This document shows, one piece after another, positions 4,901 to 48,794 of a stretch of DNA of 64,000 nucleotides. Under the pieces are notes generated by a model. It saw nothing but the letters and a program-made list of their open reading frames with translations. It had not been told where the DNA came from and made no database searches. Made by a program: the position numbers and the translations under genes. Source of the DNA: an uncultured Pedosphaera sp. (GTDB taxonomy: Bacteria > Verrucomicrobiota > Verrucomicrobiia > Limisphaerales > Pedosphaeraceae); NCBI GenBank assembly GCA_903918755.1, contig CAIXFN010000085.1, forward strand, positions 1-64,000. The letters are read 5' to 3'. Numbering within the stretch: position 1 is the first letter of the stretch; each line of letters starts with the position of its first letter.

Positions 4901-5819
4901 ACTGGTGAAGCCCGCGCCCCCGGCTTTCCTGGCGGATCTCGCCGCGGAATTCAAGTTGAAGGATCCCGCCAACGAAGGCGAAAGGCGGGCCGCCTTGGCA
5001 CACTGGATTTCCACCCCCCGGAATGCCCTGACGTGGCGGTCCATCGTAAACCGCGTCTGGTCGTATCATTTCGGCCGGGGGCTGGTGGACACCCCGAACG
5101 ATTTTGGGAACATGGGTTCCGCCCCCACCCATCCCGAATTGCTCGACTGGCTCGCCGGAGAGTTTTTGGCGCATGGACAGTCCTTAAAGTGGCTCCACCG
5201 GCAAATATTGCTCAGCGCTACGTACCGTCAGTCCGGCGCGAGTCGCGAGGATTACGCCCGTATCGATTCGGGAAACCAGTTCCTCTGGCGGATGAACCGC
5301 GACCGCCTGGGTGCCGAGTCTTTCCGGGACTCTTTGCTGCAACTTTCCGGCCGATTGGACCTGACCATGGGCGGCCCGGGTTTTGACCTGTTTGAATTCA
5401 AGGATGATTATTCGCCGCACTATTACTACGAAAAATACAACCCCGATGACGCACCCACCTGGCGGCGGAGTGTTTACCGGGCCATCGTGCGCAGCGTGCC
5501 AGATCCCCTCCTGGAAACGCTGGACTGCGCCGATCCCGGCCAAAGCGTGCCGGTGCGTAACACCACCATCACCGCCCTCCAGGCGCTCAGCTTGCTGCAC
5601 AATCCCTTCCCGCTCCGAATGGCGGAGCGGCTCGCCGGCCGGTTGGAACTCCTATCCGGTTCCCTCCCTGGGCAGATCGATTGGGCTTTCCGTCTCGTCT
5701 GCCTCCGTTACCCCACCGGGACGCAACGCACGGAATTTGTGGCCCATGCGGCGAAGTTTGGTCTCGTCAACACCTGCCGCCTCCTCCTCAACAGCAATGA
5801 ATTCAATTTCGTGGATTGA
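1932..5819 (+). CDS. DUF1549/DUF1553 exported protein with discoidin-like repeats
   Basis: A 1295-residue exported protein of the planctomycete/verrucomicrobial PSCyt2-PSD1 type; its biochemical role is not established. A signal peptide (about 1-25) precedes the DUF1549 region (about 60-290), which ends in the family hallmark CARCHDHKFDPI. Roughly residues 340-880 hold three related F5/8-type C (discoidin-like) segments, each with a KWVQ/AxDLG start and a RYVRxTAT end. The C-terminal DUF1553 region (about 1010-1290) contains NRVWSYHFGRGLVDTPNDFG. The N-terminal cytochrome domain (PSCyt1) often found in the family is absent. Its partner DUF1501 gene follows 12 bases downstream, so the two are very probably co-transcribed. 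Start ATG 1932 gives a good signal peptide. Confidence 0.9.
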   Translation: MHFLRTFFLGVLPWLLLGVVRVGAQAKENGAPVPPARHPRSDQFWAGKPLETPTVPGGAGGDLSPIDVFVRARLPTKGLGPSPEADRRTLLRRLKYDLHGLPPTPEEVDDFVNDPDPQAYEHWVDRLLASPRYGERWGRHWLDVVHYGETHGYDKDTRRLNAWPYRDYVIRAFNEDKPYGRFVQEQLAGDVLFPDQPDGIVATGFIVAGPWDQVAQTELKEGTVDKQITRVLDRDDMVANTMSTFCSLTVHCARCHDHKFDPITQKDYYSLQAVFAGVERANRYYDPDKAVLAKRTSLLQDQKVNARELGNLTAERARVSSARIRALEAEWTALTQRIATASQLSNAVPGYGKGFHSEVAPSPFDAKWVQVDLGRSVVLDEVMLIPAHLKLGDFAGPGFGFPRRFKIEVSDEAEFKSSTLLADETHTDFPNPGDAPYLARKPGVRGRYVRVTATKLMRRDAKKDDWIFALSELVAVSGGKDVALGATVTSLDSVEAAPTWSRTNLVDGRSSWGVLFNPSPTDGFQSATAPKADTTKWVALDLGRPVPIEKVILVPARSRDSPDKAGFGFPVQFRLEAANDAEFKNVELIADKTGSDFENPGLQPRSFAATNLVARYVRLTATQLWKQKDDQYLLALSEIQVQSTDQTNVARSARISALDSLESGPWGVQFLLDGYSSLAALPEAVVPAPTEGYQSARSPVADAVKWVQLDLGKKVPVDTIRLLPALAPAKTAAGKPPRSAPGSTNSPRAKTAQIARAVKSSPSRPAVATQTPLETTRGFPVRFRIEIANDPAFGPGRRLVYESQTNVNLLGSQPFELELDALPARYVRVTATRLAGERGQYGFALAEVQVVSDGWNVARGAAVQALDSAELPGWSVQYLVDGLDRHGFLDNTTDVLAGLRHQAAWEQEARGRRREQEAQVTALLDDETNRRFDLAVQRAEDLEGSLGSLPRQQLVFAAAHDFPTVGTFAPAVEPRPIHLLERGDVRRPGELVKPAPPAFLADLAAEFKLKDPANEGERRAALAHWISTPRNALTWRSIVNRVWSYHFGRGLVDTPNDFGNMGSAPTHPELLDWLAGEFLAHGQSLKWLHRQILLSATYRQSGASREDYARIDSGNQFLWRMNRDRLGAESFRDSLLQLSGRLDLTMGGPGFDLFEFKDDYSPHYYYEKYNPDDAPTWRRSVYRAIVRSVPDPLLETLDCADPGQSVPVRNTTITALQALSLLHNPFPLRMAERLAGRLELLSGSLPGQIDWAFRLVCLRYPTGTQRTEFVAHAAKFGLVNTCRLLLNSNEFNFVD

Positions 5820-36110: not shown

Positions 36111-37145
36111 TTAATATTTGCGGGTCGGCAGCGCGTCCTTGGCCTGGGACTGCTCATACACCGATTCCAAAACGCCGGTGTGCTTCGGCAAGGTCTTCTT
36201 GGCCATCAGCGCTTCCACGGCGTCAAACAATTGCGGCCCGATCAACGGATTGCATTCCACCGTGCAGTTCAACTTGCCATCTGCCATCGCTTGAAACGCT
36301 CCTTTGACGCCGTCAATCGAGACGATCAGGATGTCTTTGCCCGGCTTCAAACCGGCTTCTTCGATCGCCTGGATCGCCCCCAGCGCCATGTCGTCATTGT
36401 GCGCGTAGAGCGCCGTAATCTGTTTGGCTTCGGGGCTCTTCAGGAATGCTTCCATGACTTCCTTGCCCTTGGTCCGGGTAAAATCTCCGCTCTGGGATTT
36501 GATGATTTTCATTCCCGGGTTCTTCGCCAGCACATCTTCAAAACCCTTCTTGCGGTCGATGGCGGGAGCGGAGCCCGGAGTGCCCACCAGCTCCGCGATC
36601 ATGGCTTTGCCGCCCGTGGCCTTGGCCAGCCATTCCCCGGCGCGATGGCCTTCCTCGATGAAGTCCGAACCGATAAAGGTGGCATACAGGGAATCGTCCT
36701 TGGCATCCACTGCCCGGTCGGTCAGAACCACCGGAATTCCCGCCTTTTTGATGTCCTGCAAGACGGGTTCCCAACCCGACACAATCACGGGGGAGAAAGC
36801 AATCACATCCACTCCCTGCGCGATGAACGAGCGCAAAGCGTTGATCTGGTTTTCCTGTTTCTGCTGGGCATCGGAGAATTTCAACTCGATCCCGCGCTTT
36901 TTGGCTTCAGATTGGATCGATTCCGTGTTGGCCGCGCGCCAGCCGCTTTCCGCGCCAATCTGGGAGAAGCCCACCACGATCTTCTTCTTGGCGATGGGTG
37001 CCGCACCCTCCGCCGCCGGTTTGGCGGGCTCGGCCGGTTTCTCACCGCACGAAGACAGGAACACGCAGCACGCCGCCAGGGCGAGCCAGATCCCGCTGTT
37101 GGCCAGTCCTGCGCCCGGCCGTTTTGCCACTTGATATTTCTTCAT
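36111..37145 (-). CDS. ytfQ: Sugar-binding lipoprotein, YtfQ-like
   Basis: A 344-residue periplasmic-binding-protein-like substrate receptor. ATG 37145 (MKKYQVAK) gives a lipoprotein signal with lipobox LSSC. The mature part closely parallels E. coli YtfQ: VGFSQIGAESGWRAANTE, QQKQENQINALRSFIAQG, SGWEPVL, DRAVDAKDDSLY, SQSGDFTRTKGKEVMEAF and YAHNDDMALGAIQAI. YtfQ binds galactofuranose, so this ABC system probably imports galactofuranose or a similar furanose. First gene of the four-gene transport operon. Confidence 0.9.
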   Translation of the reverse strand: MKKYQVAKRPGAGLANSGIWLALAACCVFLSSCGEKPAEPAKPAAEGAAPIAKKKIVVGFSQIGAESGWRAANTESIQSEAKKRGIELKFSDAQQKQENQINALRSFIAQGVDVIAFSPVIVSGWEPVLQDIKKAGIPVVLTDRAVDAKDDSLYATFIGSDFIEEGHRAGEWLAKATGGKAMIAELVGTPGSAPAIDRKKGFEDVLAKNPGMKIIKSQSGDFTRTKGKEVMEAFLKSPEAKQITALYAHNDDMALGAIQAIEEAGLKPGKDILIVSIDGVKGAFQAMADGKLNCTVECNPLIGPQLFDAVEALMAKKTLPKHTGVLESVYEQSQAKDALPTRKY

Positions 37146-37383
37146 ATTGCTCAAAGGTTGCCATTGTGCCACCGCCGCCGGATGCTGCTGCCGATTCACC
37201 GGTGCCCAACCGGGCGGGGCGGGGTACGATGGCCGAGCTTACGGAACTCCCGCGTCCGGGCCAAACCTTTTTGTGACTCCGCAGCCTCCGTAAATTGGCC
37301 GACGGCCACCCACTTTTTGATTTCCGGTCTGGGACCGCCTGGCGCCTGGGCAGGAGAAGAGCCATGCGCCGGGGGGGGGGCGC

Positions 37384-38577
37384 TCAGGCCGGCAAGGGAA
37401 TCTGGACGGCGATTTCCGTTCCCCCGCCGCGGCAGGAGCTCATTTTCAGAATTCCTCCCACGTGGCTCGCCCGTTCGCTCATGCTGAGCAATCCCAAACT
37501 GCTGCCGCGCGGGCGCCGGTTCGGGTGCTGGTTCAGGTCAAACCCCGCGCCGTCGTCCTGAATTTTTAGGCGGATGATGCCGTCCGTCTGTTTCAGTTGG
37601 AGGATTACTTTCTGCGCGTGGGCGTGCAGTTCCACGTTGCGCAAGGCCTCATGAATAATGCGGTACAAGGCCAGTTCGATGCCGGCCGGCAACCGTGCCG
37701 GCAGGGGTTTGCAATGCACCTTGCAGGTCATTCCGGTCCGGTGCGCAAACTCCCGCGCGATATTGCGCAATACGGCGTTGAGACCAACCTGTTCCAGCAC
37801 TCCCGGCCGCAGGTCCCGGGAGATTCGTTCCACTACATTCGCGGTTTCGCCGAGCAGATCACGGAGTTGGATCGCCTCCCGCCGCGCCGGCCCGTTGGCC
37901 TCCGGCAGTTGGTCCGCGAGCACCTGGCTGCGGACGAGCACTGCGCAGAGCAGCTGGGTGACGTGGTCATGCAGTTCCAGAGCGACTCGCCCGCGCTCAG
38001 TTTCCTGAACTTCCACCACCCTTTGAATTAACGCGCGCAATTGTTCCTCACTACGCCGGACCTCGGTCAGGTCCGTCACGACCACCCCGAAGGTCGCGCG
38101 GTTGGAATTCGCCTGGGCGAGGGGCAGGATGGAGAGTTGCACGGGAGTGGCGGCTTCCTTGCCCGCCAGCAGCTGCACTTGCAGTTTGGCCCCCGTTCGA
38201 TCGCGTTTTTTGAGGAGCTGCCCAAAAATTTTGCGGTCCGGGCCCCCCAGAAAGCGCGAAAAAGAACTGCCCACCACCTGCTCCAGCGGGCTTTTGACCA
38301 GGTCCGCAAAGCAGCGATTCGCAAACAGGATCGCCGCCTTCGCGCTGAGCGTCAGCGCGCCTTCATGCATGGACTCCATGAGGATGCGGTACGCGTGGTC
38401 GGCCCCTTCCAGGGTGAAAACTTGCGGGCCGCCATTGCTGGCCACCACCACTGCGTCCACTTCCCCGCTGCGGATGGCCCGGATCACGGCAACCGCCTCC
38501 GCCAGTTTCGCGCGCAAATGCCGGACTTCCCGGGTGGACCCGGAAGGGCGGCGAGGGGATGCCGGTGAGGCACTCAC
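37384..38577 (-). CDS. PAS-containing HisKA_3 histidine kinase of the kai operon
   Basis: A 397-residue soluble histidine kinase starting at GTG 38577. An N-terminal coiled coil (about 15-45) precedes a PAS domain (about 65-190, HAYRILMESMHEGALTLS...), then HisKA_3 (RVALELHDHVTQLL, phospho-accepting His) and an NarL/DesK-type ATPase (ALRNVELHAHA, QDDGAGFDL, LGLLSMSERA). It starts 7 bases after a KaiB-like gene and is the fourth gene of the kaiC operon. In cyanobacteria the clock output kinase SasA joins a KaiB-like domain to a kinase; here the KaiB-like protein and the kinase are separate neighbours. No receiver gene is adjacent. Confidence 0.87.
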   Translation of the reverse strand: MSASPASPRRPSGSTREVRHLRAKLAEAVAVIRAIRSGEVDAVVVASNGGPQVFTLEGADHAYRILMESMHEGALTLSAKAAILFANRCFADLVKSPLEQVVGSSFSRFLGGPDRKIFGQLLKKRDRTGAKLQVQLLAGKEAATPVQLSILPLAQANSNRATFGVVVTDLTEVRRSEEQLRALIQRVVEVQETERGRVALELHDHVTQLLCAVLVRSQVLADQLPEANGPARREAIQLRDLLGETANVVERISRDLRPGVLEQVGLNAVLRNIAREFAHRTGMTCKVHCKPLPARLPAGIELALYRIIHEALRNVELHAHAQKVILQLKQTDGIIRLKIQDDGAGFDLNQHPNRRPRGSSLGLLSMSERASHVGGILKMSSCRGGGTEIAVQIPLPA

Positions 38578-38584
38578 GGGTTAC

Positions 38585-38926
38585 TCAATCCTTGGAGTTC
38601 CAGCCGAGTCCCACGAACAGACCCGCGCTCTTCGTCAGGTTGCCGATCAAGCGGACCACGGGTTTGGGGAATTCCCGCACGAGCGTTGGGGTGGCGACAA
38701 TCTGGCCATTCCGCGCCAGGATGGGTTGTTGGTAAACATCGATGACCTGCAAATCGTAGTTGCCCCGCAGTTCCGTGTCACACAACCGCCGGGCGCGCAG
38801 GATGGCGCGCCGCGACCGTTCCGTGGCTCCCGCCACATACAGTCGCAGGCGTTGTCTGGGCGGAGCGGCAACCGGCGGGCTTTGGGCCCGGGCTGGTCTG
38901 GCCGGTTTGGATTTGGCGGCTTTCAC
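38585..38926 (-). CDS. Divergent KaiB-like protein (second copy)
   Basis: A 113-residue protein whose last ~85 residues follow Kai[53 protein letters not shown], and FVGLGW. It is more divergent than its neighbour: the GDLSDxxRVLxGLDL core becomes [16 protein letters not shown] basic Ala/Pro-rich tail (about 1-28) precedes the domain. Its GTG start overlaps the upstream stop (GTGA), indicating coupling. It may link KaiC to the downstream kinase; that role is inferred. Confidence 0.82.
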
Positions 38927-39273
38927 GGCTGGCGGCTTCGGAGGGGAGCGGGGCGCAAGTCCAAACCTACGAGCACGCGTTCAGTGTCGGATAGGTCCCC
39001 GATGATTTTGCGTACCGGTTCCGGCAGGCGGCGCACCAAAGTGGGAATCGCCAGAATCTGATCCCCCTTGGAGAGTTGGGGTGACACCACGAGGTCGATC
39101 ACCTCGATGCTGTAGATGCCCTGGAGGTGTTCCTCGCAGATTTGCTTCAAGTTCGCAAAGGCGGTCAGTGATTTGGGGGTCTGGCCGGCCACATAAAGCC
39201 GCAGTTGCCAGGATTTCTCCGCCGGTTCCGGGGCGCGCCGTGACGCGGGTTTGACTGATTTGGTTTTTTTCAC
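38923..39273 (-). CDS. kaiB: KaiB-family protein
   Basis: A 116-residue KaiB. The core [60 protein letters not shown] and [12 protein letters not shown] closely follows cyanobacterial KaiB, including the residues of the fold-switching C-terminal half. GTG start at 39273 overlaps the kaiC stop by 4 bases (GTGA). In clocks KaiB binds the KaiC ring at night; in other bacteria KaiB/KaiC pairs affect stress responses. Confidence 0.9.
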
Positions 39274-41060
39274 AACGTTCCCGTCCGGCGTTTGGGACGG
39301 TTGAGTTTCTGGCCCCGAGGGGCGACGGCGGCATCCGCCTGCCGGAGGCGGCCCAGTTCCGTCCGCTCATCGGAGAGGAGCCGGGTTTGGGTGCCCACTT
39401 GTTCGGCGATGCGGCGCAGTTCCCGGGCCTCGGTTTCATAATCGGCGCGCAGCGCGCTGATCTGGCGCTCCAGGGCGGCCCGCTTCCGTTCGACTTCGCG
39501 TTTGAGTTGATCGGCTTCCAGTTGGCTGGCCAGCCGGGCCGCCTTTTCCAGCGAGTCTTGCGCCGCGCGCGCCGAACCGGTCAGAACGCCGCTGGCCCCG
39601 ATATAGGCGTCCACGATGTCGATGCCCCGTTCGGAAATCAGAAATTCGCGGATCTGGTTGGAGTGGGCCATGCCCCGGGCTTTCAATACGTAAAAAACCC
39701 GGTTGCGTTCACCATTGCCTTCAAAATCCTGCAACAAGAGCCAGGCATCCATGAGGGACGACATCGCCGCCTCACTTTGCTGCATGACATGCCCGGCTTG
39801 CGTCAGGCTGGTGAAGAGCGAAGTGATCTGGCAGCCCTTCAGGTAGTCGATCAACCGGGTGATCATGCCCTTGGTTTCGGAATTGGTACCGGAATCCATT
39901 AGGCTGGTGATTGGATCAATGATGACGACGTCCGGCTTGAAGGTGGCGATTTCCCGGAACATGGTCGCCAGATGCATCTCCAGCCCGCACAGTGAAGGCC
40001 GGGCCGAATGGAACCGAAGCAGGCCGCGCTTGACCAGCGGGGCCAGCCGCAGCCCGATCGAATGCATATTGCGAATGATTTGGGCCGGCGATTCTTCAAA
40101 AGAAAAGAACAGCACCCGCTCCCCGCGCCGGGCGGCTGCCTGGGCAAAATTGGTCGCAACGATGGTTTTCCCGGTCCCGGGGGTTCCAGTCAGCAGGATA
40201 CTGCTGCCGCGAAAGAATCCTTTTCCCCCCAGCATGGCATCCAACCGGGGAATGCCGGTCGCAATCCGCTCGTTGGACACCCCATGATTCAGCCCGAGGG
40301 AGGTGATGGGCAGAACGCTCAATCCTCCGTCGCCGATAAGAAAGGGAAACTCGTTGGTGCCATGCATCGCCCCGCGGTACTTCACCACCCGCAAATGACG
40401 CGTGGCAATCTGGTCGTTGATCCGGTGGTCCAACAGGATGACGCAGTCCGAGACGTATTCCTCGAGGCCGTGCCGCGTCAATTGTTCACGCCCGCGCTCC
40501 GCCGTAATCACTGTCGTCACCCCTTTATCTTTGAGCCAGCGGAAGAGTCGTCGCAATTCCGCGCGCAGGATGGCCTCATTGGGAATCCCGGCAAACAGCG
40601 CCTCCAAAGTATCCAGGACCACCCGCTTGGCACCGATGGAATCAATGGCGTAATTCAATCGCACGAACAAACCTTCCAAATCATACTCGCCGGTCTCGTG
40701 AATTTCGCTGCGCTCGATGTGCACATGCTCCAGCAGGATCATTTTGGCTTTTTCCAATCCCGGCAGATCAAAGCCGAGCGAGGCAACGTTGGCCCGCAAC
40801 TCGGGTTCCGTCTCCTCAAAGGACATCAGCACGCCCGGTTCCCGGAAAGTCATCGCCCCGCGGACAAGGAATTCGGCGGCCAGCAGCGTTTTGCCACAAC
40901 CCGCCCCGCCGCAGACCAGTGTCGGTCGGCCGCGCGGCAGCCCACCGCTGGTGATTTCATCCAATCCCTGGATGCCGGTGGGACATTTGGGAAGCGATTT
41001 GGCGGGGGAAATCGTGGGGATTCCCGGCGGGCGGGGGCGGTCGGGGCCGGTTTTTTTCAT
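39270..41060 (-). CDS. kaiC: KaiC-like dual P-loop ATPase
   Basis: A 596-residue KaiC/RadA-like ATPase with two RecA-type domains. CI: Walker A GGAGCGKT (51-58), catalytic E82-E83. CII: Walker A GTPGTGKT (292-299), catalytic E322-E323, B strand [11 protein letters not shown]. The CII phospho-site region (cyanobacterial S431-T432 in HISTITD) reads AAMSSLMD, so S434-S435 may be the acceptors, a Ser-Ser rather than Ser-Thr dyad. A C-terminal ~95-residue tail is a charged coiled coil (about 495-585), not the KaiA-binding tail of cyanobacteria. ATG 41060 is preferred to TTG 41069. First gene of the kaiC-kaiB-kaiB-kinase operon; no kaiA is seen. Confidence 0.92.
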
Positions 41061-41312
41061 GCAGGACAAAGAATCATCAGCCAGCGCGAATCAATGCGAC
41101 TAGATAACTTATCCTGCCTCACTAGCCACATCTTGGCATATGGGGGAATCACCCCAGGATAATGCCTGCAACCTGGAAAATGCTTCCGCTTGTTTCAGGT
41201 TACTTCAGGGGTTGGGAGAGCGTTCCTCAAATACGTACGCGTTACGGCCTATTCCCGCCACCGATTGCCGGTGCGAAATCTATTGGATTGTGGTTTGCCC
41301 GACCGATCAGCG

Positions 41313-41501
41313 ACGGGGGGGCGATTGATTTTGGCGGAAACGGAGCGCCGGATCAAACAAGTCGGCGGAAAGCGGATCTACGTCGGATCTTCTTCCCTTC
41401 CGAGCTACGAACCGACGCGGGCCTTTTATGCCACGAACGGCTATATGCTGAACGCCCGGCTGCCGGATTACCATTGGGCGGGCGATGATCTTTGCGTTTA
41501 A
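41313..41501 (+). pseudogene. GNAT acetyltransferase remnant
   Basis: The translated end GRLILAETERRIKQVGG then IYVGSSSLPSYEPTRAFYAT and DYHWAGDDLCV matches the C-terminal half of GNAT acetyltransferases. Upstream sequence has no acetyl-CoA-binding N-terminal half. At the 3' end, a single extra A makes TAA where family members continue (compare V-Y after DDLCV), hinting at a frameshift. So this is a 5'-truncated, probably non-functional gene. Confidence 0.6.
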
Positions 41502-41583
41502 CGCAAGACCATCGAATGATCCCCCTCCCGCCAAGTTTGGTGGCTGATCCTGGCGGGAAGGGTGCCGGCGGCAAAGCCGGAAC

Positions 41584-42138
41584 TCAGGTGGCGGGTTCGG
41601 CGAGCAATTTCTTGACGACCTTTTCTACGTTTTCGGGCTGCAGTCCAACGGCCCGCACAATTCCCTTGCGATCCACCACCGCATAGGTGGGATAATAGCC
41701 GACTTTCCAGGCCGCTTGCGATTTGAGGTTCGGATCAAGCGCGGTCGGGTATTGAATGCCTTTATCCTTCACCGTTTGCCCCATTTTCTCCTGGCCGCGG
41801 CTGCTGGTGCACACCCCGACAATGACCAAACCGTCCGCCTGGTATTTCTTCAACATCTCATTGTTATGGGGGATGGCCGCCATGCACGGGCCGCACCAGG
41901 TGGCATAGAAATCCACCACCACCACCTTGGCCTTCATATCCTCAGGTTTGACCGTGCCATTGATCCAACCGGAAAGGTCCAGTGCCGGCATGGGTTTCCC
42001 CTCCAACGAAGCATGAGCCGAACGGTTTTTCGCGTCCGTATCCCAGGTCCAACTATCCGGAAACTCCCCGGCGTGAGCGCCCCGCGTGCAAGCCAGGGCG
42101 GTGACAGTAACAGCAGCAAAAAGACTTAAGTAACGCAT
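41584..42138 (-). CDS. TlpA-like exported thioredoxin
   Basis: A 184-residue protein. ATG 42138 (MRYLSLFAAV) gives a signal peptide, TVTALACTRGAHA. The TlpA/ResA-like thioredoxin domain has VVVDFYATWCGPCMAAIP with the redox CxxC, followed by GVCTSSRGQEKM and the cis-Pro region YYPTYAVVDRKG. It would reduce disulfides (or support cytochrome c maturation) outside the cytoplasm. Divergently arranged with aconitase; a second TlpA-like gene lies on aconitase's other side. Confidence 0.88.
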   Translation of the reverse strand: MRYLSLFAAVTVTALACTRGAHAGEFPDSWTWDTDAKNRSAHASLEGKPMPALDLSGWINGTVKPEDMKAKVVVVDFYATWCGPCMAAIPHNNEMLKKYQADGLVIVGVCTSSRGQEKMGQTVKDKGIQYPTALDPNLKSQAAWKVGYYPTYAVVDRKGIVRAVGLQPENVEKVVKKLLAEPAT

Positions 42139-42216
42139 GAGCCACGCTACGCGAGCGGGCGAAATTCTGCAAATCGAAACTACCTTGGCGCGGGAGGATA
42201 GACCTTGATGCGCCGC

Positions 42217-42245
42217 TTGACACCATCGCGGCCAAACCGCATTTT
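42217..42245 (+). promoter_or_regulatory. Possible sigma70-type promoter for aconitase
   Basis: TTGACA (42217-42222) followed after 17 bases by CATTTT (42240-42245), upstream of acnA. The -35 box is perfect but the -10 is weak (3/6), so this is tentative. Confidence 0.3.
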
Positions 42246-42289
42246 TGGGGGCGCGTTGATGGCCACAAAAAATGCCGCGGCGGATTTTT

Positions 42290-45025
42290 ATGAATGAATT
42301 GCACAACTTGTTTGACACCCTGAAGAAATTTGACCTGGGAAATGGAGGCCAAGGCTCGTTTTATTCCCTGCCCGCCCTGGAAACGGCCGGCGTTGGGCCC
42401 ATCTCCCAGCTGCCGGTCTCCATTCGGTTGGTTCTGGAAGCCGTGCTCCGGAATTGCGACGGCAAAAAGGTTGCCGAGAAGAACATCCGCGAGTTGGCCA
42501 ACTGGCAGCCGAAGGCGGAGCGGGTCGAGGAGATTCCGTTCATCGTCGCCCGGATTGTTTTGCAGGATTTCACCGGGGTGCCGCTGCTGGTGGATCTTGC
42601 CGCCATGCGGTCCGCGGTGGCCCGGATGGGCCGGAACCCGAAGATGATCGAACCGCTTGTCCCCGTGGATCTGGTGGTGGATCATTCCGTGCAGGTGGAT
42701 TTCGCCGGTAACGCGCTGGCGCTCCAACGCAATCTCGACCTCGAATTTGAGCGCAACCGTGAGCGCTACCAGTTCTTGAAGTGGGGCATGCAGGCGTTTG
42801 ACACCTTCAAGGTCGTTCCGCCCGGCATCGGCATTGTTCACCAGGTGAATCTCGAGTACCTGGCCAAGGGCGTGCTGGCCTCCGCGGATGGCGTTTATTA
42901 TCCCGATACGCTGGTGGGCACGGACTCCCATACCACGATGATTAATGGCATCGGGATCGTCGGTTGGGGTGTCGGCGGCATCGAGGCGGAAGCGGGCATG
43001 CTCGGTCAGCCGGTTTATTTCCTGACCCCCGATGTGGTCGGGGTTTATCTGACCGGAGCCCTGCGCGAAGGCGTCACCGCCACTGACCTGGCCTTGACCG
43101 TGACCCAACTGCTGCGCAAGGCCAAGGTGGTTGGCAAATTCGTGGAATTCTATGGACCGGGTGCGGCCGCGCTTCCCGTGGTGGACCGCGCCACGATTGC
43201 CAACATGGCCCCTGAGTACGGGGCTACCATGGGTTTCTTCCCCATTGACGCCGAATGCGTGAACTATTTGCGCGCCACCGGGCGCAGCGAAGAGCATTGC
43301 CGGATGTACGAGAATTATTACCGCGCCCAGGGACTGTTCGGAATTCCCGAACGTGGCACGATTCAATATTCCACCGATGTGGAACTCGACCTGGCCAGTG
43401 TTCATCCCAGCGTGGCCGGTCCCAAGCGCCCGCAGGACCGCATTGAATTGCCCAAACTCAAGGGTGAATTCGTCGGGGCCTTCTCCCGCCCGATTACGGA
43501 AAGCGGCTTTGGCAAGAAAGCGGAAGACCTCTCCCTCCGGGTGCCGGTGCAGGTGGCCGACACCGATGCCGCCGCCGCCCAGCCCCAATTGGAAACCCGC
43601 ATTGGCAACGGCAGTGTGCTTATCGCCGCGATCACCAGTTGCACCAACACCTCCAACCCGGGCGTGATGCTCGCGGCCGGATTGCTGGCCAAGAAAGCCA
43701 TTGAGAAGGGGTTGCGTCCCAACCCCACGGTCAAATCTTCGCTCGCCCCTGGGTCACGCGTGGTGACGGATTATCTGACCCGCACCGGCCTGCAACCGTT
43801 CCTGGATCAGTTGGGATTCAACCTGGTGGGTTATGGTTGCACCACGTGCATCGGCAACTCTGGTCCGTTGTCCCCGTCGATCGAGGAAGCCATCGTGAAA
43901 AACGACCTGGTGGCGGCGGCCGTCCTGTCCGGGAACCGGAATTTCGAAGCCCGCGTCCATCAGAACATCAAGGCGAATTTCCTCATGTCGCCGCCGCTCG
44001 TCGTGGCGTTTGCCCTGGCCGGCCGCGTCGATATTGACCTGACGACCGAACCGATTGGCTTGGGCAGTAATGGTCAGCCGGTTTATCTCAAGGATATCTG
44101 GCCGACCTTGCAGGAAGTGCGCGATCAACTTGCGGCGGCCCTGCATCCCGAGGTGTTCCAACGGCTCTACCGCGATTTCGCCGGACAGAATCCCAAGTGG
44201 AATGAAATCTCCTCCAGCCTGGGGAATGTTTACGAATGGGCCGTGGACAGCACCTACATCCAGGAACCGCCTTTCTTCACGCAGTTTGCCCTGCAACCCG
44301 GGGAAATCCGCGGGATCACCGGAGCGCGGCCCCTCGGCATTTTTGGCGATAGCGTGACCACCGACCACATCTCGCCAGCCGGCAATATCAAGAAGACCTC
44401 GCCGGCCGGTAAGTACTTGATCGACCACGGGGTGGATTATGCGGATTTCAATAGTTACGGCTCCCGCCGCGGCAACGACCGCGTCATGACCCGGGGCACC
44501 TTCGCGAATGTCCGGATCAAGAACCTCATGGTTCCGGGTGTGGAAGGTGGCGTCACCAAGTACCAACCCAGCGGCGAAGTCATGAGCATTTTTGACGCCG
44601 CCGCCAAGTATGCCGCCGCCGGCACTCCCTTGATCATCTTCGCGGGGCAGGAATACGGCACCGGGAGCTCCCGGGATTGGGCCGCCAAAGGCACGAACCT
44701 GCTGGGCGTGCGGGCCGTGGTGGCGCAAAGTTTCGAGCGCATCCACCGTTCCAACCTCGTGGGCATGGGTGTGCTGCCCCTGCAATTCAAGGAAGGCGCC
44801 ACCGCCCAGTCCCTGAATCTGGACGGCACGGAAGTTTACGACCTGCTGGGGGTGGGGGCTGACCTGAAGCCGCAACAGGATTTGACCTTGCGCATCACCC
44901 GGGCGAATGGCGTCGTGGAAAATGTGGCCGTTCGCTGCCGGATCGATACCCCGATCGAAATCGATTACTACCAGCACGGTGGCATCCTGCCGTTCGTGCT
45001 TCGCCAGTTGGTCGCCAAAGCTTGA
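42290..45025 (+). CDS. acnA: Aconitate hydratase A
   Basis: A 911-residue [4Fe-4S] aconitase of the AcnA/IRP type, interconverting citrate and isocitrate in the TCA cycle. Iron-sulfur ligands are C451 (in SCTNTSNP) and C517/C520 (in [14 protein letters not shown]). The swivel domain is present ([35 protein letters not shown]). ATG 42290 (MNELHN) is chosen as start; ATG 42272 six codons upstream is possible. A strong terminator follows at 45044-45082. Confidence 0.95.
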
Positions 45026-46371: not shown

Positions 46372-48294
46372 TCATTCCGTTACTTTGTGGCCGCCGTGAG
46401 CGGCGGAGAGCACTTGGCGGAGGACGGCCGTCAATTCGTCCTGGGTGAAGGGCTTGGCCAGCAGGGCGTCGATGCCGAGTTCCCTGAACTGCCTGGCCAG
46501 GGATTCCTCGAGCCGTCCGCTGTTAAGAATCACCGGCACTTCCGGCATCATTTGTTTGAGCGCCCGGCCGGCCGTGAGTCCATCCATGTGGGGCATATTT
46601 ACATCCAAAATCACGACGTCAAGCCGATCCCGATTCTCGGCCGCCCGTACGAGGGCCTCCGCCCCGTCCGCCGCCACCAGCACAGTGAATTTCAAATGCT
46701 GGAGCACCATGCGAAAACTCTGCAACACGGCCACGTCATCGTCCACCACCAGCACGGTCTTGCGTTCACCAGGAAACGGCCCCGCCGGGTCGATCTGCGC
46801 CGGCTCCGGGTTCGTTACCAACGTGGCGGGCAGGCCGACCGTGAAGGTCGTCCCCACGCCGACCTGGCTGTCCACCCGGATAAAGCCGCCATGGTTTTCG
46901 ACCACGTTGTAAACCGTTGCCAAGCCAAGGCCGGTGCCCTTGCCGGGGGCTTTGGTCGTGAAAAACGGCTCGAAAATTTGCGGCAGCACCCGGGGAGCGA
47001 TTCCCTTGCCTGTGTCACTCACCCGCAGGCGCAAATATAGGCCGGGCCGGACATCAGGTTCCGCCCGGCAATAGGCTTCATCCACGTCCAGGCTGTCCAC
47101 TTCAACCGTCAGAATCCCCCCCTCGGGCATGGCATCCCGGGCATTCCGGCACAGATTGGCAAGCATCTGATTCAGTTCCTCGGGATTACCCGCCACGGTT
47201 CGTGCCGGGTTGGCGTTCCGAATTCGCAGTTCGATGGTCTTGGGAAAGGTGCCCTCAATCAACGTACGGAGGTCTTTGACCAGGCGGGCGGGCTCCACGG
47301 CCACGCGTTCACCGTTGCTGCCCCGCCCAAATGAAAGTAACTGCCGCACCAGGTCGGCCCCCCGCTGGGTGCTGGACTCGATGATATCCAGGATCGGAAG
47401 GGCGCTGGCGGGGACCTCGGGCCGGAGGATGGCAACCCCCAGGATAACCGGCGTCAGGGCATTGTTCAGGTCATGGGCGATGCCATTGGCCAGCGAGCCA
47501 ATGCAGCCGAGGCGCTCGGTGCGCAGGATCTGGGCTTCCGATCGCTTTCGCCGCGTAATGTCCAGGGCCGTACCGCCCAGAAACTCTTGGGCACGGTTCT
47601 GGTCCCAGATCCGGGTTCCGGAATGTCGCACCCACTGGGTGCCGCCATCCGGCTTCACCACTCGATACTCCAAGTCGAACCGCGATGTCTGGCCCGTGGC
47701 GAAATGTTCCCAATCCGCCCGCACCCGCGCTTGGTCGTCCGCGTGGAGGCACTGCCACCACGCGTCGGATTCTTCCATCAGCCGGGTCCGGGGAACTCCC
47801 CAGATTCCTTCCGCTGCGGAACCGAGATAGACAAAACGGGTCGGCTTGATTTCGCGTAACCAAAAACACTCGCCGCTGCTCTCGATCAGTTGGCTAACGA
47901 GTTGTTCGTTGGCGCGGTCCTTCGTCGCTTCCAAGGCTTGCCGCACTGCGGTTGGCAGGCGTTCCAGGCGCTGTTTGACGAGGTAATCGGTCGCGCCATG
48001 GCGCATGCAGATGACCGCCGGTTCCTCCCCGGGCGTATCGCCCAGGACAACGATGGGGAGGGCCGGCCGTTTTTCCCGGGCCAGCTTTAATTCCGCCAGC
48101 CAGTCCGGCCGGGCCGGATTTACCTCACACAGCACGAGGTCGAAATTATTCTGGTCCAGCGCTTCGGAAAACGGCGTGGTCCCACTCACGGATTGGATCT
48201 GACTGGTTAACCCGGCTTGATCCAGCAGGTCGCGGATGGTTTTCGCGGCGGTCGGGTCAATCTCATGAAGGAGGATTCGGATCGTTGGCATCAT
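46372..48294 (-). CDS. Hybrid histidine kinase with degenerate N-terminal receiver
   Basis: A 640-residue hybrid kinase. Residues 1-125 have a receiver fold (RILLHEIDP, acidic pocket E11/D13), but the phospho-Asp position in FDLVLCEVN is Glu (E57), a natural phosphomimic. A PAS domain follows (about 140-255), then HisKA ([13 protein letters not shown]), HATPase ([31 protein letters not shown]) and a C-terminal receiver with intact [15 protein letters not shown]. The lone receiver gene follows 2 bases downstream. The ATG at 48294 or 48291 starts the protein. Confidence 0.88.
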
Positions 48295-48794
48295 CTTTGG
48301 TGGTGGGGTTGAGCCGGGTCCGCCAGGCGGAGTGTTCCCCGGAGGCTTTTGGTCAGGGTGGGCCCGAATCCGCCGTACAAATTTGGCCGGCGAGCCTGCC
48401 ATCCGTGGGCCCCCCGGCTGGACGGGGAACTGGTACCGAGTCGATCCGTAACTGGGAAATTCCTGCCTTCCTCCTGGGAATTCAGCATCATTGCCGGAAT
48501 TGTCTTCATTTTCAGTCGCCTGTCATCGGGCGAAATATGCCCCCCCACCGCCATCATTGACGTATTCTGAACCAAGGGTGCTCGTACCGGTGATGCTAAC
48601 TTTGCACTGCATCCTAGGTGGTCGGCATCCTTCTGGCAAGTTGCTTCTCAGCCTGGTGGCGCAATGGCCCGAGAGCCATCTCCGCATGGATGAGGACTCG
48701 CCGTGCCAACGTATGCGCTCGGAAGTTGGTCGCCCAAATCGTTCGATCGGAGCGGCCTTGGCCGCTGGCGGATCGGTGCCTGGCTGGGCCTATT
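48295..48794. other. 500-base gap without a recognised gene
   Basis: Between the hybrid kinase start and the end of the beta-propeller gene. No credible coding frame, tRNA or hairpin terminator was seen. It may hold the promoter for the kinase/receiver pair. Confidence 0.5.

Follow-up and report, generated by a model that had tools for sequence, protein, structure and literature searches.

The four-gene kai operon

The 64,000-nucleotide stretch of DNA analysed here (the window), from an uncultured Pedosphaera sp., encodes on its minus strand, at positions 37384-41060, a four-gene operon in the order kaiC-kaiB1-kaiB2-PAS/HisKA_3 kinase. The kaiC gene (39270-41060; 596 amino acids; ATG start, with an alternative TTG possible 9 bases upstream) ends in a 4-base GTGA overlap (39270-39273) with the GTG start of kaiB1 (38923-39273; 116 amino acids), a second 4-base GTGA overlap (38923-38926) joins kaiB1 to the GTG start of kaiB2 (38585-38926; 113 amino acids), and 7 bases (38578-38584) separate kaiB2 from the GTG start of a PAS-HisKA_3-HATPase_c sensor kinase (37384-38577; 397 amino acids). 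The original prediction, made from this DNA, had described four genes joined by such overlaps and a 7-base gap, and this layout is confirmed at every position; the arrangement is real, and chance is ruled out. The two kaiB genes give the only KaiB matches in the organism's own genome (G000; 7.19 Mb in 118 contigs), and kaiC encodes its only full double-domain KaiC, with weak KaiC-like ATPase matches on other contigs; a 1306-residue frame with weak matches of this kind lies at G000:C36:36030-37487. Among the eight proteins in and around the operon there is no KaiA, for which no genome-wide search was made. A scan of positions 36900-42400 returned one promoter-like site against 1.0 expected and ten terminator-like sites against 6.8 (s.d. 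2.8), and its result was left unused.

The window KaiC matches the Pfam KaiC ATPase family twice (E=4.6e-108), with Walker A motifs at residues 51-58 and 292-299 and catalytic glutamate pairs at 82-83 and 322-323, and its nearest named records are Opitutae/Verrucomicrobia bins. Its best match among solved structures is the KaiC of Rhodobacter (Cereibacter) sphaeroides (8dba, E=1.7e-190), in an alignment that reaches the C-terminal tail and extends through residue 566, whereas alignments to full-length cyanobacterial KaiC entries stop at about residues 509-515. In the alignment, Ser434-Ser435 stand opposite the two positions mutated to glutamate in 8fwi. Two ATPase domains, two phosphosite serines and a tail about 50 residues longer than that of KaiC1 or KaiC3 support the assignment of this protein, by sequence, to the KaiA-independent KaiC2/R. 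sphaeroides type. The independence from KaiA that had been suggested for the operon thereby gains support, because the R. sphaeroides homologue autophosphorylates without KaiA (PMC10076222; here and below, papers are cited from their titles, the beginnings of their abstracts and passages), and the window KaiC should behave like that homologue.

This operon type is already known, as a kaiC-B-PAS/HK operon, HK being a histidine kinase, has been named in Rhodopseudomonas palustris and R. sphaeroides (PMC4794148), histidine kinases or GGDEF/EAL proteins have been noted downstream of kaiC or kaiB in a Ramlibacter genome paper (PMC3164672) and KaiC2 has been described as carrying two serines (PMC5520375); the window holds its two-KaiB variant. 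In a KaiC-alignment scan of named genomes, 70 of the best 80 of 581 confirmed kaiC loci carry kaiC, at least two kaiB genes and a protein with the N-terminal module of the window kinase (the N-module, described below), in this order, a share that is no unbiased census because the scan alignment was made mostly from tandem-kaiB loci and the 80 loci are the nearest ones. The other ten comprise six kaiC-kaiB-N loci, one cut by a contig end and three kaiC-kaiB loci without the module. According to record titles and taxonomy labels, the 70 loci include Verrucomicrobiota, Lentisphaerota, Bacteroidota, Planctomycetota, Pseudomonadota, Thermodesulfobacteriota, Myxococcota, Nitrospirota, Acidobacteriota, Chloroflexota and Methanoperedens archaea, many of them metagenome bins. 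Tandem KaiB matches occur in six of the eight genomes of the window's family, its own genome counted. A Pararhizobium plasmid carries kaiC-kaiB-kaiB-hybrid kinase, a plasmid of R. sphaeroides KD131 carries kaiC-kaiB-HWE kinase, and in loci L060 and L071 the N-module protein is preceded by three and four tandem kaiB genes, respectively.

Some relatives lack a member of the set. Four loci have kaiC, kaiB2 and the module protein without kaiB1 (L028, L039, L042 and L073), as do L146, L149, L151 and L152, judged by tree side and residue motif. The L016 genome, a single contig of 4.0 Mb rated 100% complete, still has the kaiB2-kinase pair, immediately preceded by the gene of a NarL-type regulator, and contains only weak partial matches to the KaiC profile (best E=2.7e-6).

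The KaiB pair and the kinase N-module

Both KaiBs exceed the Pfam KaiB cut-off of 27 bits (KaiB1, 88.1 bits, E=3.2e-25; KaiB2, 76.1 bits, E=1.8e-21). Neither reaches the 145.3 bits of the clock KaiB model TIGR02654 (108 and 69 bits, respectively), and at PRK09301 (cut-off 110) KaiB1 passes at 114 while KaiB2 fails at 70. Phylogeny of the KaiB copies, which had been named as a check, separates first from last copies: in an unrooted tree of 203 KaiBs on about 90 columns, 87 of 88 first KaiBs, window KaiB1 being on their side, fall on one side of a branch (here alpha) and all 88 last KaiBs on the other (beta, or output-side). The odd first KaiB is that of L101, an extra copy beside an N-PAS-GerE protein in divergent orientation; in this locus (L101:4053-5009 and 5484-5810) the extra beta-side KaiB is encoded upstream of kaiC, and the N-module is fused straight to a DNA-binding domain. 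Window KaiB2 belongs to a 26-row set (99 in the Shimodaira-Hasegawa-like approximate likelihood-ratio test, SH-aLRT) of 21 last KaiBs, four single KaiBs with the N-module and one long-branched single KaiB without it.

The two copies also differ at a single column. KaiB2 contains the motif D-V-Y-Q-Q-P (residues 63-68; 38723-38740, minus strand), which is typical of KaiBs adjoining the kinase N-module. The Tyr65 column is aromatic in 83 of 90 last KaiBs, as against two of 90 first and none of five middle copies, and among single KaiBs in 10 of 15 with the N-module and 2 of 25 without it (L035, cut by a contig end, and L036); in multi-KaiB loci without the module the count is 1 of 15. In a broader sample, richer in Bacteroidota, the module-adjacent KaiB has Tyr, Phe, Trp or His at this column in 110 of 130 loci. 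Where the last KaiB has Ser or Thr plus Arg in place of Tyr-Gln (L191-L195, L197 and L198), the N-module scores 42.6-47.8 bits, compared with a median of 69.7 bits in loci with an aromatic residue or His, a difference to which clade effects may contribute. A stricter statement, that a beta-side KaiB never occurs without the N-module, was dropped: KaiBs from other kai systems, which lack the module (L154-L165) and, but for one Phe (L160), the Tyr motif, also fall on the non-alpha side of the tree, for which reason we use the motif instead of tree side. Three of these loci, from the phylum of Thiocystis (L154, L155 and L160), show a different two-KaiB arrangement, KaiB-KaiC-KaiB, with a lower-scoring KaiC and no N-module. 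The presence of two KaiB copies, as first described, is thus confirmed; on the basis of the tree and the motif, KaiB1 and KaiB2 look less like plain paralogues than like an old paralogue pair kept in order, of which the second goes with the output protein.

One explanation of such a pair is that KaiB2 is a free-standing domain of the SasA kind, which would replace KaiB1 on the KaiC CI ring and carry the kinase with it, so that competition between KaiB1 and KaiB2 sets the output. Indeed, the SasA model PRK09303 is matched at E<=0.01 by 37 of 37 KaiB2-type proteins (best 6.6e-10) as against 27 of 35 of the KaiB1 type (best 1.6e-7), although this difference is modest. Instead of the E98 and D105 of KaiB1, window KaiB2 has A101 and G108; in an ungapped alignment that equates chain positions with residue numbers, these sites match Glu84 and Asp91, the acidic side of the lateral KaiB-KaiB interface of cyanobacteria. 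SasA lacks that lateral complementarity and binds non-cooperatively (PMC6769508); the lost charges do not single out SasA, however, because the assembly of R. sphaeroides KaiB likewise appears to be non-cooperative (PMC10076222). With KaiB2 surviving without KaiC in L016, and with a window kinase that itself has no KaiB-like domain, we consider this explanation rather unlikely.

We favour instead a pairing of KaiB2 with the kinase, whose candidate contact is the N-module. The kinase matches PAS_4 (E=9.2e-7), HisKA_3 (E=2.8e-9) and HATPase_c (E=1.1e-10), has the motif ELHDHV at residues 201-206, and contains a PAS domain at about residues 59-169 in the structure model (38071-38403, minus strand). 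The N-module, at residues 17-63 (38389-38529, minus strand), comprises about 47 residues with the consensus LRxRLxEAEETLxAIRxGEVDAxVV...GxQVFTLxGA. No Pfam or NCBIfam match covers these residues, matches beginning at residue 54 or later and those of the PAS models at 57-79, and the best match of the module profile to solved structures has only E=0.086. The module is predicted as a helix (residues 14-36) and a β-hairpin (42-47/50-55) leading into the PAS domain, at a predicted local distance difference test (pLDDT) score of 58-89 per ten-residue block over residues 11-60. A fold search with the kinase model listed general PAS/LOV kinases, phytochromes and DesK-type kinases, and nothing informative on the N-module.

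Draws of genomes from three phyla place the module almost exclusively behind kaiB. In the window's phylum (thresholds KaiB E<=1e-8, module E<=1e-5), KaiB is found in 20 of 387 genomes and the module in 16, all of them within the 20 and 15 of them close behind kaiB (Fisher p 5e-25). In the second phylum, to which the L087 genome (Thiocystis minor) belongs, 36 of 398 genomes have KaiB and ten have the module, in nine of these, all KaiB genomes, behind a kaiB and in the tenth behind a kaiB remnant (Fisher p 1e-9). All 27 modules found among 385 genomes of the third phylum, which includes the L086 genome (Mucilaginibacter rivuli) and in which KaiB was sought only beside module matches, lie behind kaiC and kaiB. 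Taken together, 53 of the 1170 genomes have the module, three of the 53 being the centres of the draws, and in 52 it is close behind kaiB. With no more than 17-18 candidates scored per genome, divergent modules may have escaped detection elsewhere; of 14 genomes in which every candidate at E<=0.001 was scored, 11 had exactly one module and three had none. KaiB-positive genomes without the module number four in the first draw and 27 in the second, and one of the twenty module-less loci read from the latter, L166, shows a weak module.

There are exceptions and irregular loci. In G047, module and kaiB are on different contigs; a 1776-residue multi-PAS hybrid kinase (L143:6440-11767) has an N-module and no kaiB within 12 kb, and is the second copy in the L093 genome, whose regular kai operon lies at another place. 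In L199 and L200 the kaiB domain and the module stand about 310 bases apart, and the L113 genome has a weak 23-residue second module match. At L153:4221-7441, a kaiB remnant (34 bits) lies directly before a 1039-residue N-PAS-GAF-HD protein, a decaying kai locus with the output protein kept.

Gene order by itself could produce this association, if the operon moved as one block and the N-module were a family part that makes no contact with KaiB. The genes of one operon share their history, and the partial correlations reported below are modest. However, the domains behind the N-module and PAS differ widely while the module stays behind kaiB, the first two draws yielded a single KaiB-negative genome with a module (E<=1e-5), beside a kaiB remnant, and kaiB2-kinase persists without kaiC; we therefore regard this account as very improbable.

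Output domains and a NarL-type regulator

We scanned 51 module proteins, a set without the remaining HisKA_3 kinases of the clade to which the window belongs. PAS is present in all of them, HATPase_c in 30, HisKA in 23, HisKA_2 and HWE in four each and HisKA_3 in three, and there are further receiver (12), GGDEF (4), EAL (4) and sigma-54 activator (4) domains. The module protein of L085 ends in an HD domain, and the Bacteroidota module proteins of L062 and L072, of about 240 residues, have no kinase or other output domain. As far as sequence tells, the part behind the N-module varies and appears to be swappable among relatives, with the N-module constant behind kaiB.

This diversity bears on whether the kinase is an output at all. 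The operon could simply regulate stress responses or metabolism through KaiBC, with no timing function; two KaiBs would then provide dosage or two affinities, and the kinase would be an input sensor acting on KaiC or KaiB. PAS is a common sensory fold, a stress role is described for KaiC2 in Legionella (PMC5520375), and the same paper refers to a proposal in which the R. sphaeroides kinase relays a redox signal to KaiBC. Nevertheless, output fits better than input because effector domains follow the N-module in some relatives (GGDEF-EAL, a sigma-54 activator, an HD domain or GerE), and mere dosage does not account for the different residue signatures of the two KaiBs; we judge such a role to be unlikely.

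For an output kinase, a candidate partner can be named. The gene of a receiver-GerE regulator immediately follows the kinase gene in L028, L044 and L047 and precedes kaiB2 in L016. The window aside, members of its family occur in the fetched stretch of 8 of 25 clade loci (L015, L016, L017, L028, L040, L044, L047 and L052), that of L040 being about 5 kb away on the opposite strand. In the window's own genome the counterpart is G000:C5:41847-42521, which is 64% identical to the L047 regulator, the next best by score of 62 matches reaching 34%. The partner of the window kinase is probably this kind of NarL-type regulator, encoded elsewhere in the genome. The idea of a kai operon with its own output kinase is supported by gene order kept across phyla, by an N-module found almost only close behind kaiB and by the regulator in 8 of 25 related loci.

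A proposed KaiB2-docked output switch

We propose that the operon encodes an ATP/ADP-responsive KaiBC switch in which KaiB2 recruits the kinase and the kinase drives a NarL-type regulator, a proposal to which we give an even chance of being right. R. sphaeroides KaiC is a KaiA-independent dodecamer with phosphorylation set by the ATP/ADP ratio, and R. sphaeroides KaiB binds CI in its post-hydrolysis state (PMC10076222). By homology with this system, rings of the window KaiC, probably paired through the C-terminal tail, would self-phosphorylate without KaiA, and a fall in ATP/ADP together with CI hydrolysis would let thioredoxin-fold KaiB bind CI and favour dephosphorylation. The work would be divided between the two KaiBs, KaiB1 acting as the ordinary KaiC regulator and KaiB2 as the link to the output protein, a pairing that we infer from gene order, co-occurrence and the paralogue-specific residue.

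KaiB2 may dock the N-module of the kinase, possibly at its β2 edge. In a structure model of thioredoxin-like topology, which is weak, Tyr65 follows strand β2 (residues 57-63), and KaiA docks on β2 of fold-switched KaiB, where changes abolish docking and leave the KaiB-KaiC CI complex unaffected (PMC6378743); it is these two observations that suggest the docking place. Fold-switched KaiB with KaiC also interacts with CikA (PMC6378743). Once docked, the PAS kinase would alter its activity and pass phosphate to a NarL/LuxR-type regulator, most likely G000:C5:41847-42521, and the cell would read its energy state, or the time since that state changed, as transcription.

Several findings weigh against this proposal. 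The module profile (A2) was built from kai loci only, which favours finding kai loci again. Support for the branch between first and last KaiBs is moderate (SH-aLRT about 89-91, from some 90 columns), 20 of 130 module-adjacent KaiBs have neither an aromatic residue nor His at the Tyr65 column, and KaiB2 is not strictly needed, because some N-module proteins adjoin only a motif-less KaiB (L077, L125 of R. sphaeroides, L126, L148, L166, L199 and L200). Conversely, KaiB2 can probably serve KaiC too, since kaiC-kaiB2-N loci without kaiB1 occur. The KaiB2 model has a pLDDT of 63, and ordinary thioredoxins match it about equally well. The C5 regulator is unlinked to the kai operon and lies behind another HisKA_3-like kinase, possibly its true partner; relatives of that kinase adjoin kaiC in several loci, so both kinases may share the regulator.

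Co-variation of the N-module with the KaiBs is likewise modest. Its distances correlate with those of KaiB2 at r 0.51 and of KaiB1 at 0.34 (80 loci), and control for KaiC distance, a further point against the proposal, lowers these to partial values of 0.31 (bootstrap 0.17-0.45) and 0.19 (0.07-0.30), with a difference of -0.04 to 0.25 that is not significant. With two large clades removed and KaiC controlled, the values are 0.47 and 0.24 (56 loci, no interval). A stronger contrast with KaiB1 as the sole control (partial 0.50 versus 0.08, 98 loci) was set aside, having weakened after control for KaiC. Co-variation therefore lends weak support to a KaiB2-specific contact.

More broadly, and with somewhat less than even confidence, we suggest that the module of about 47 residues is a dedicated KaiB-docking plug with KaiB2 as its socket, an output architecture apart from those of SasA and CikA. 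A single KaiBC timer would then, across many bacterial phyla and in some archaea, drive interchangeable effectors (kinases, cyclic di-GMP enzymes, sigma-54 activators and HD domains), and could persist as a KaiB2-kinase-regulator unit after KaiC loss. How KaiBC timers signal outside cyanobacteria is an unsettled question, to which a module marking the output protein and a residue marking its KaiB are relevant: the output of a kai locus would become predictable from its sequence, and the prediction could be tested with a pair of purified proteins. Natural experiments on the role of each KaiB are offered by the KaiC-less locus and by those without kaiB1.

The closest described system is the kaiC-kaiB-PAS/HK operon of R. 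sphaeroides and R. palustris (PMC4794148, PMC10076222), which shares the order of kaiC, kaiB and PAS kinase. The R. sphaeroides KaiC is likewise of the KaiC2 type with Ser-Ser sites and tail, and the KD131 kinase bears the same N-module; KD131 has, however, a single KaiB, which falls on the KaiB1 side of the tree, in contrast to the two of the window, and an HWE rather than a HisKA_3 kinase. The Synechococcus KaiABC-SasA-CikA-RpaA system shares the KaiC and KaiB families and a histidine kinase, with readout possibly by way of a KaiB-type surface. Unlike SasA, the window kinase, with PAS, HisKA_3 and HATPase_c families only, has no fused KaiB-like domain, and unlike CikA it has no GAF or receiver match at E<=0.01; the window also differs from Synechococcus in having no KaiA among the proteins inspected and in pairing a HisKA_3 kinase with a likely NarL/LuxR-type partner. 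The first context of the Ramlibacter paper (PMC3164672) shares a signalling protein directly downstream of kaiC or kaiB, whereas its passages describe no conserved second KaiB or shared N-terminal module, and its KaiB-like 'Nt_HK' is part of a separate, kaiB-less context. In the titles, abstract beginnings and passages covered, which mostly leave out subscription papers, the arrangement of two KaiBs with the N-module is undescribed. What is apparently new is the ordered KaiB pair with its paralogue-specific residue, the N-module, the varied outputs and the KaiC-less kaiB2-kinase locus.

Elsewhere in the window, a PAS hybrid histidine kinase with a receiver, distinct from the genome's single N-module match, is encoded about 5 kb from the kai operon (46372-48402, minus strand).

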